From positions 558,001-622,000 of the forward strand of contig NC_020813.1 of NCBI RefSeq assembly GCF_000348725.1: a stretch of 64,000 nt of DNA. Reading direction: 5' to 3'. The position numbers were made by a program, and so were the translations under genes. Source of the stretch: Pseudobdellovibrio exovorus JSS (lineage in GTDB: Bacteria > Bdellovibrionota > Bdellovibrionia > Bdellovibrionales > Bdellovibrionaceae). The notes under the pieces are model-generated. The model searched no databases, had not been told where the DNA came from, and saw nothing but the letters and a program-made list of their open reading frames with translations. Of this stretch, positions 18,521-21,127 are shown piece by piece (position 1 is the stretch's first letter; each line of letters opens with the position of its first letter).

Positions 18521-18802
18521 ATGATGAAGCTAAGCACAAGTCAAATACAAAGACTGTCTGAAAAAATCTTGAAACAGTGGAAGTCTCAGCAGCTCATTAC
18601 CTTTAAAGTCGACGAAAAAGTAGTTCTACAAACAATCATCGATACGATCACAAATGATTTCAAACGCGAAGAACAATTAGAACAAGATGTTCATGCGTTA
18701 ATGGATCAAATGGAGCGTGAGCATGAAGGACAATTTCAACGTCATAAGATGTTTCCGATGTTGAAACAGAAATTAGCTAAAGAAAGAAAAATAATTTTAT
18801 GA
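18521..18802 (+). CDS. DUF507-family protein, first of a tandem pair
   Basis: A 93-residue charged, helical protein. The start LSTSQIQRLSEKILKQW and the pattern of Ile/Leu in the helices match DUF507 proteins, which are small cytoplasmic proteins of unknown function found mainly in deltaproteobacteria-like and Aquificae lineages. It shares the overall plan of the next gene but is more diverged. It overlaps that gene by four bases (ATGA), so the two are translationally coupled. Two ATGs are adjacent; either may be used. Confidence 0.72.
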   Translation: MMKLSTSQIQRLSEKILKQWKSQQLITFKVDEKVVLQTIIDTITNDFKREEQLEQDVHALMDQMEREHEGQFQRHKMFPMLKQKLAKERKIIL

Positions 18803-19071
18803 TTTTGTCAGAAGACAGACAGTATCACTTAGCTCATATAGTTACAGATAAAGTTTGGGGTGACGACATCGTGGATTTTTCTGACGATGATTTGGCACTT
18901 AAAGCTGCGAAGATAGCTATCATTGCATTCGTGAAAGAAGACATGGAAATTGATAAGAAAGCTCGTGAAAAAGTAGCTTCTTTGAAACGCAATGTTGTAG
19001 AAGGCACACGCGAGTGGGAAATTCTTTATAAAAAATACTACGAAGAGGAAAGAAATCGCTATGGCGTCTAA
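18799..19071 (+). CDS. DUF507-family protein, second of a tandem pair
   Basis: The 90-residue protein is a clear DUF507 member: LSEDRQYHLAHIVTDKVW, then DFSDDDLALKAAKIAIIAF, IDKKAREKVASLKRNVVEG and a C-terminal EWEILYKKYYEEERNRYG. It is cytoplasmic and of unknown function. Coupled to its paralogue upstream and overlapping the GroES-fusion gene downstream by 11 bases, it belongs to one operon with them. Confidence 0.85.
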   Translation: MILSEDRQYHLAHIVTDKVWGDDIVDFSDDDLALKAAKIAIIAFVKEDMEIDKKAREKVASLKRNVVEGTREWEILYKKYYEEERNRYGV

Positions 19072-19690
19072 GAAGAAAAAAAAGACAGTTGTTAAAAAAA
19101 CTCCAGCGAAAAAGGCTCCGGCTAAAAAAGCCTCTAACAAAAAAGTCGTAAAGAAAAAAACGATTAAAGCGAAGCCAGCAAAAGCTAAAACTCAAAAAGT
19201 AAAAGCAAAAGCTAAGCCCACAAAGGCTAAATCAGTAAAGACTAAAACTGTAAAATCGAAGGCTGTGAAAACGGTATCGAAAAAAGCTCCTGTTAAAAAA
19301 GCAGTTAAAGCTCCGGCTGTGAAAGCAGTAGTTAAGAAGTCAGTGGCGGTGGCTCCAACTGTTAAAAAAGCTAGTGTGACTGTGGATTACAGCAAAGCGA
19401 TCACTCCATTGGGGGATCGTCTAGTGGTGCGTGTTCAAGGAAGTGAACGTGTTACGGCAGGTGGAATTATTATTCCAGATTCGGCATCAACAGCGACTGG
19501 CTATTTGAAAGCAGAAGTTTTAGCCGCAGGAACTGGTTCGAAAAATAAGAAAGGTCTTTTGAAGCCATTGGATGTAAAAGTGGGTGACCTTGTTCTTTTC
19601 AATTCGTATGCGGGGACGAAAGTCACTTTCAATTCAGAAGAATTACAGATCATTCACGAATCAGACGTTATGGGCGTCGTTCAAGATTAA
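19061..19690 (+). CDS. GroES (Cpn10) domain fused to a lysine/alanine-rich histone-H1-like tail
   Basis: Residues 1 to ~105 are almost only Lys, Ala, Val, Pro and Thr (MASKKKKKTVVKKTPAKKAP and many AKK repeats), like bacterial H1-type tails that bind DNA or RNA. Residues ~108-209 form a full Cpn10 domain: AITPLGDRLVVRV, VTAGGIIIPDSAS (the mobile loop, with the hydrophobic tripeptide that contacts GroEL), KVGDLVLFNSYAGTKV and LQIIHESDVMGVV. Ordinary GroES is ~95 residues, so this is double length. No groEL lies nearby. The ATG has AGAGGA upstream and overlaps the DUF507 gene. A co-chaperonin tethered to nucleic acid is an inference. Confidence 0.88.
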   Translation: MASKKKKKTVVKKTPAKKAPAKKASNKKVVKKKTIKAKPAKAKTQKVKAKAKPTKAKSVKTKTVKSKAVKTVSKKAPVKKAVKAPAVKAVVKKSVAVAPTVKKASVTVDYSKAITPLGDRLVVRVQGSERVTAGGIIIPDSASTATGYLKAEVLAAGTGSKNKKGLLKPLDVKVGDLVLFNSYAGTKVTFNSEELQIIHESDVMGVVQD

Positions 19691-19720: not shown

Positions 19721-21127
19721 ATGATGCGATCAATACTAGTGGCTTTTTTAATGTTGGGTGGAAGTGTAGCATCGGCGATCTCGATCGACTGGTCTGGTGG
19801 ATATCGTATTGAGTTCTTTGATATCGATAATCCAACGTTGGACAGAGACAACAAACAACCTAAAACCTACGGACTTCAATATCTTTATTTAAATCCGAAA
19901 ATTGTAGCTTCTGATGGAATCAATATCATCAGTCGTTTTGATATCTTAGGGAATACACAAACAGGTTATAGAAACTCTCAGATGGGATCGTTCATTGGCG
20001 GTGGATTTGGTTCAGATTCACGTGTGAATTCGCAAAATCAAGATTCAGCAGGCACAGGAATTACTGTGAGCCAGTTGTACTTGAATGTGAATCACGAATA
20101 CGGATCATTGATTGCGGGTCGCGCCCCTTTTGAGTTTGGTATGGGGATGACTCACAACGCGGGTTTAAAACCTTTTGATCACTGGTATGACACTCGGGAC
20201 TCAGTGGCTTATAAATTTGTTATTGATAACGTGTCGATCATGCCAATGCTTTCGCGTGTAGCTCAGAAGGATTTTGGCCGTGGGGTTACGATTTCAGATG
20301 AGACCATCGTTTTTGAATACGATAACAAAGACAACGGAGCTAAAGCCGGCGTTGTACAACAAATCCGTAAAAGCAGTTTAGAGTCAAATGATGCAACAAC
20401 AGCTATACAGCCATTGCCGAACTTTGCAGGGGCTACTTTGAATGGTGCATGGTCAAGTAAAACTGTGAATTTGTATTTGGGTCGTAAATGGACTTCTTTC
20501 GAATTTCAAATCGAAGCGAGTTTCTTAACTGGTGAAACAGGTCTCGTGGTAGCAGGTGAATCGGTTAAGTTTAATTCTTACGCTGTTGCCGCTGAGTTAT
20601 TATTCCCTAAAGCTGAAGGTGGAAAATGGGAATTTGGTACCAAGTTAGGTATTGCGAGCGGGGATAATCCAAATACAACTGGAGTTTATGAAGGTTATCA
20701 AATGGATCGTAACTATGATGTGGCGATGTTGATGTTCAATCATAGAATGGGCCAACGTGATTTTTTAACAACTTCAATTCTTCACACTGATCCTGCATTA
20801 AATGTGGGTAACTCTGCTGATGATGAAGCTATTGGTAATGCGATGTATGTTGCTCCATCAGTTCAATACTCATGGAATGACAAAGTTGATGTGAAAACGA
20901 CATTGATCTACGGACAATTAGTAACAAAACCAACTTTAGCACTAGACAGCAGTAAAGATTTAGGTACAGAATTAGATATCGAGTTGATTTATAAACCACG
21001 TGAACGAATCATTTGGTCGAATCAAGTCGGTGTTTTGTTTCCAGGAGCGGCGTGGAAAGATGGAGCGTCGGATCTACGGAATCAAGTCAACTATGGATTT
21101 GCAACTAAAGCCGCCATCACCTTTTGA
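19721..21127 (+). CDS. Putative outer-membrane beta-barrel protein
   Basis: The 468-residue protein has a signal peptide (MMRSILVAFLMLGGSVASA) and then alternating aromatic and polar beta strands such as IDWSGGYRIEFFDI, YGLQYLYLNPKIV and ALNVGNSADDEA. It ends ...NYGFATKAAITF with a terminal Phe, the usual signal for outer-membrane insertion. No conserved family was recognised. Length and strand count would fit a 14-18 strand porin-like barrel. It follows the GroES-fusion gene after 30 bases with AAGGGA upstream, and a strong terminator closes the unit 70 bases after the stop. Confidence 0.7.
   Translation: MMRSILVAFLMLGGSVASAISIDWSGGYRIEFFDIDNPTLDRDNKQPKTYGLQYLYLNPKIVASDGINIISRFDILGNTQTGYRNSQMGSFIGGGFGSDSRVNSQNQDSAGTGITVSQLYLNVNHEYGSLIAGRAPFEFGMGMTHNAGLKPFDHWYDTRDSVAYKFVIDNVSIMPMLSRVAQKDFGRGVTISDETIVFEYDNKDNGAKAGVVQQIRKSSLESNDATTAIQPLPNFAGATLNGAWSSKTVNLYLGRKWTSFEFQIEASFLTGETGLVVAGESVKFNSYAVAAELLFPKAEGGKWEFGTKLGIASGDNPNTTGVYEGYQMDRNYDVAMLMFNHRMGQRDFLTTSILHTDPALNVGNSADDEAIGNAMYVAPSVQYSWNDKVDVKTTLIYGQLVTKPTLALDSSKDLGTELDIELIYKPRERIIWSNQVGVLFPGAAWKDGASDLRNQVNYGFATKAAITF

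Follow-up and report, generated by a model that had tools for sequence, protein, structure and literature searches.

A second GroES lineage of the Bdellovibrionales with a long, apparently translated histone H1-like tail: a candidate alternative lid for GroEL

What might a GroES-type co-chaperonin do with a histone H1-like tail, and is such a tail part of the protein at all? The question is raised by a gene of Pseudobdellovibrio exovorus JSS, here termed groES2, which lies in the window analysed in this work (a stretch of 64,000 nucleotides of contig NC_020813.1, positions 558,001 to 622,000) and whose features, in window coordinates, are as follows.

19061-19690, + strand: groES2 open reading frame, ATG start, 209 residues
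19061-19399, + strand: GroES2 N-terminal Lys/Ala/Pro/Val-rich tail, 113 residues, charge +41, apparently translated (open frame and like composition in 70/70 relatives, dN << dS, Shine-Dalgarno match at the full-length start)
19400-19690, + strand: GroES2 Cpn10 domain, residues 114-209, with the stop codon (Pfam PF00166, E 7e-25; PDB GroES chains by sequence and fold)
19457-19477, + strand: GroES2 mobile loop with the predicted GroEL-docking motif, about A133-D140, GGIII at 134-138 (alignment with E. coli GroES and 71 groES2)
19547-19552, + strand: GroES2 basic roof pair K163-K164, equivalent to E50-N51 of E. coli GroES (both basic in 61/71 groES2)

The Cpn10 domain is intact, as the original prediction had claimed, and includes the GGIII mobile loop (TAGGIIIPD). 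The Pfam profile matches residues 114-207 over profile positions 2-93 of 93 and scores 87.3 bits against a curated cut-off of 21.1, which places the protein in the family. Co-chaperonins account for all the solved structures matched by sequence, and the domain, modelled as a monomer with AlphaFold (mean pLDDT 76), resembles GroES chains. Against the NCBIfam GroES subfamily and equivalog models, GroES2 falls under every curated cut-off (the best score being 89.8 against 120 bits), as is expected of a divergent paralogue. The tail, foreseen at about 105 residues, comprises 113 residues ahead of the first domain residue, with a mass of 11.9 kDa and a net charge of +41, and is rich in Lys, Ala, Val, Thr and Pro. 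In a quick tree of 96 columns, the Cpn10 phylogeny that had been proposed as a check, groES2 forms a clade apart from groES1 and from outside GroES proteins with 99% SH-aLRT, the finer branches being without resolution; the row L043, labelled groES1 in this tree, is a groES2 at a contig end. By locus and clade, the reading frame is assigned to GroES2, a GroES lineage of its own in the order Bdellovibrionales.

The genome of P. exovorus (2.66 Mb) contains one further Cpn10 gene, groES1, which encodes a tail-less protein of 100 residues and adjoins the sole groEL, about 1.85 Mb from groES2. The tail-less groES which was to be sought therefore exists, and groES2 is indeed remote from groEL, as had been noted. 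The presence of groES1 led to rejection of GroES2 as the lone GroES of the genome. A dedicated second groEL was likewise rejected: the genome has one groEL, and GroEL is single-copy in the relatives, setting aside fragmented assemblies and two genomes in which none was matched, such that GroES2 would have no private partner. Canonical GroES (that of E. coli and the groES1 product of P. exovorus) shares the Cpn10 fold and mobile loop with GroES2, yet it is tail-less, has an acidic roof, is encoded next to groEL and belongs to a separate clade.

Two Cpn10 genes occur, by hand count, in 12/12 other members of the genus sampled, 43/46 of the rest of the family, 32/56 of the rest of the order and 0/3 of the rest of the class; the count covers gene number, and tails were inspected in 70 of the second copies. 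In the rest of the phylum there are eight genomes with two Cpn10 genes, and the inspectable copies have frames of 97-132 residues and hence no long tail. A long-tailed groES2 was thus not found outside the order among the sampled members of the class and phylum. A scan with the single protein gave one close named relative, Bdellovibrio bacteriovorus strain kdesi (91%); this strain (L135) is the basis on which one genus is termed here B. bacteriovorus-like. A phage origin of groES2 finds no support, since the matches in phage and viral contigs are partial or are ordinary GroES, and none reaches 80% query coverage.

On comparative evidence, the tail is apparently translated. The sample consists of 70 groES2 genes uncut by contig ends, from the P. 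exovorus JSS genome and its relatives, collected with an open-reading-frame filter of 165 residues; the filter conceals no tail-less groES2, since the sole second copy below this length in the order among those listed, L043, is cut by a contig end. The fusion, whose occurrence in related predators had been posed as a question, is found in all 70, with tails of 48-193 residues (median 104), although start codons were picked by rule and for a small number of genomes (e.g., L040 and L074) the length may be out by some residues. Median composition is 34% Lys, 21% Ala and 1.3% Asp plus Glu, with a median charge of +35. There is no in-frame stop in the 7,338 tail codons, whereas the two remaining forward frames have 378 and 569 stops and nucleotide shuffles predict about 410; the open frame is thus not a product of chance. 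Substitutions between close pairs fall mainly in third positions (dN 0.020 and dS 0.264 for L089-L094; 0.026 and 0.302 for L089-L035), and the tail evolves faster than the Cpn10 domain, yet under clear purifying selection. A Shine-Dalgarno match of at least 4 bases precedes the full-length start in 65/70 genes. An internal ATG within 30 codons of the Cpn10 domain is present in 18/70 genomes, and 3 of the 24 such ATGs have a Shine-Dalgarno match, a rate comparable to that of random tail codons (14%). Recent tandem DNA repeats were rejected as the origin of the tail, the arrays in this region being weak and short.

A second GroES in this group is already known. The groES2 product of B. bacteriovorus, Bd3349, belongs to the same family by sequence and locus and, as here, is a second groES apart from groEL; its locus, in the B. 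bacteriovorus-like genus, lacks the DUF507 halves described below. Its old annotation was a reading frame of 224 residues, which matches the relatives L035 and L089. Lambert et al. (2012, PMC3464611) re-annotated it from 224 to 117 residues, dropping the first part as repetitive and without homology, and the tail was left out of consideration. That translation of GroES2 starts inside the frame, which would leave the repeat as non-coding sequence ahead of the gene, as this re-annotation and the internal start codons of some genomes would have it, is highly improbable and was rejected, given a stop-free frame, the prevalence of third-position changes and the scarcity of internal ATGs with a Shine-Dalgarno match relative to the full-length start. 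For the same reasons the 117-residue gene model is very probably incorrect, and a true start after the tail, the counter-case named in the original prediction, is contradicted by the comparative data on substitution pattern, start site and conservation. The same study is the sole experimental paper found on groES2; having used the truncated gene model, its discussion of a "different lid" omitted half the protein. According to this paper, groES2 transcripts are seen only at 2-4 h of predation, and the GroEL-contact residues of Bd3349 are mostly conserved (PMC3464611). The main text of a 2025 proteome paper names GroES1 and does not name Bd3349. No description of a long, order-wide translated tail or of the charge-reversed roof was found in the open-access literature.

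Does such a protein still engage GroEL? In the alignment with E. coli GroES, the hydrophobic triplet of the docking loop is present in 71/71 groES2 and Gly-Gly in 64/71, the exact GG being absent in seven; the interaction with GroEL is thus probably under selection. Because the triplet is retained throughout, the suggestion that the tail blocks GroEL docking is the less likely reading. The dome roof has changed in another manner: at the pair equivalent to E. coli positions 50-51, 61/71 groES2 have basic residues and none has acidic ones, whereas in groES1 the pair is acidic (or Asn) in 35/35 and basic in 0/35.

The reading preferred here, with a probability of about 0.45, is that GroES2 serves as an alternative lid for GroEL, with seven cationic tails by which the chaperonin would be anchored to rRNA, mRNA, DNA or other polyanions. 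As its kept docking loop and the lack of any other GroEL suggest, GroES2 probably caps the one housekeeping GroEL in place of GroES1. A heptamer would then bear seven tails with about +290 charge altogether. The usual GroEL chamber holds a client of roughly 60 kDa, and seven tails would have a mass of 38-151 kDa among the groES2 homologues (median 77), which is too large for the chamber and points to tails that lie outside it. Tail length has a fourfold range, which is likewise easier to reconcile with external, multivalent tethers than with a chamber lining. On the outside the tails would most likely bind polyanions (ribosomal RNA, mRNA or DNA), and the GroES2-capped chaperonin may be held near translation or the nucleoid during heavy protein synthesis. 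This proposal is supported by the presence of the tail in all 70 genes, by its composition (Lys about 34%, Asp plus Glu about 1%), by purifying selection and by the basic roof; the late transcription and the largely conserved GroEL contacts of the B. bacteriovorus gene are also counted in its favour. Against it stand the nature of the constant neighbour of groES2, an outer-membrane protein rather than a nucleic-acid gene, the complete genomes of the order that lack groES2, and the seven genes without the exact loop GG. The further proposal of a co-chaperonin doubling as a nucleic-acid tether, where a basic dome together with the seven H1-like tails would let GroES2 lids bring the common GroEL to the nucleoid or to ribosomes, is offered tentatively; we know of no other chaperonin localized by a nucleic-acid-tethering lid. 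The observation behind the original prediction is therefore confirmed and its interpretation partly supported: nucleic-acid binding by the tail is putative, while GroEL capping and, on the mass argument, an outward direction of the tails are predicted. Full-length GroES2, which an order of predatory bacteria retains, is a simple and testable example of a chaperonin cofactor possibly targeted by charge.

Known systems share parts of this arrangement. Bacterial H1-like proteins and tails, such as chlamydial Hc1 and Hc2, AlgP, Bordetella BpH1 and the mycobacterial HU tail, are polycationic and of low complexity, rich in Lys, Ala and Pro; the likeness to the GroES2 tail is one of composition only, and such tails sit on DNA-binding proteins, whereas that of GroES2 sits on a co-chaperonin. 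The Pfam HC2 profile (PF07382) has no match in the P. exovorus genome at E <= 1, in a search that discounts biased composition. Mycobacterial GroEL1 is a chaperonin paralogue for which association with the nucleoid has been discussed. A nucleic-acid role is thus proposed for both proteins, yet GroEL1 is a GroEL-type subunit, not a lid, and has no H1-like tail. Atypical chaperonins have been reviewed (PMC5904260).

The tails may instead lie inside the chamber, as a lining or a filling, or the chamber charge may be altered by the basic roof, with GroES2 serving special clients late in predation in a changed cage. T4 Gp31 and chloroplast Cpn20 are likewise alternative co-chaperonins for a GroEL-type chamber, the former with special clients, and to our knowledge neither has a polycationic tail. 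The charge reversal of the roof pair agrees with such a role, as do the late expression and the alternative-lid idea of Lambert et al. (PMC3464611). Seven tails of the mass given above would, however, displace the client, their length varies fourfold, and Gp31 is only a weak fold match to the GroES2 domain (E 5e-3); a specialized chamber is thus considered unlikely in comparison with outward tethers.

The genes which flank groES2 raise a further possibility, namely that GroES2 is a dedicated helper of the neighbouring barrel protein. These neighbours are:

18521-18802, + strand: DUF507 N-terminal half, separate open reading frame (PF04368 profile 1-93)
18799-19071, + strand: DUF507 C-terminal half, separate open reading frame (PF04368 profile 93-181)
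19721-21127, + strand: outer-membrane barrel-like protein, 468 residues (Pfam/NCBIfam: distant relative of TIGR04551/Alginate_exp, under the TIGR04551 cut-off)

Two DUF507 genes had been predicted beside groES2; two reading frames are indeed there, but they are the halves of one family of 182 positions. They overlap each other by 4 bp, the C-terminal half runs 11 bases into groES2, and the barrel gene begins 30 bases past the groES2 end. The order PBP, DUF507 halves (where present), groES2, barrel gene is nearly invariant: among 70 groES2 loci the barrel gene is directly downstream in 70, the PBP gene is found in 68 and the DUF507 halves in 40, the latter being missing throughout the B. bacteriovorus-like genus and in a few others. 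GroES2 might, for example, hold the barrel protein before export, with acidic lipids or the barrel precursor as the ligand of its tail, and the position directly upstream of the barrel gene in all 70 loci across the order speaks for such a partnership. Yet in some complete genomes without groES2 the barrel gene adjoins the DUF507 halves in the same place, and barrel precursors are not usual GroEL clients, which makes a dedicated helper rather improbable. An obligate pairing of groES2 with the barrel gene or with DUF507 was rejected, since groES2 is absent between the two in some genomes; that with DUF507 fails also on the loci from which DUF507 is missing.

The groES2-less complete genomes, with the DUF507 halves and barrel gene retained at the same place, fit a single early origin of groES2 followed by losses, repeated gain being also possible, and their existence implies that its function is dispensable. 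Both DUF507 halves also occur in most of the groES2-less loci examined, and the split into overlapping N- and C-terminal frames (18521-19071) is kept across the order, groES2-less genomes included. The Aquifex protein, in which the two halves are joined, shows a pseudo-twofold internal repeat (PMC10439177). The barrel gene was found in 51/51 good-quality relatives, even those without groES2. One 99%-complete genome of the order (G039, locus L133) keeps the DUF507-barrel locus and has neither a Cpn10 nor a GroEL match, and is apparently a bacterium without type I chaperonin.

Finally, the tail may be a generic lysine-rich appendage, due to solubility or lysine-repeat drift, with no specific job. 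Its wide variation in length and sequence would be consistent with this, as would the similar tails on other proteins of the genome, yet an appendage found on 70/70 groES2 and on no groES1, under purifying selection in close pairs and with acidic residues almost nowhere, is doubtful as a product of drift, and more so than a barrel helper. The H1-like tail is not unique to GroES2 in the P. exovorus genome. Ribosomal protein bL21 (L149; C1:2567692-2567721, minus strand) ends in an H1-like Lys/Ala tail of roughly 45 residues, and a protein of 199 residues (L141; C1:1960376-1960528), with no Pfam match, is H1-like in its first half and strongly acidic in its second; tail-borne charge is thus a recurring device in this genome. 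bL21 binds rRNA, and its tail is counted in favour of a polyanion-binding tail on GroES2. In addition, a protein of 140 residues in the window (L140; 60951-60980, minus strand), also with no Pfam match, bears a Lys/Ala-rich C-terminal tail, and a tiny lysine-rich reading frame of about 31 residues (L144; C1:2540103-2540168) consists of nearly all Lys, Ala, Thr and Val.
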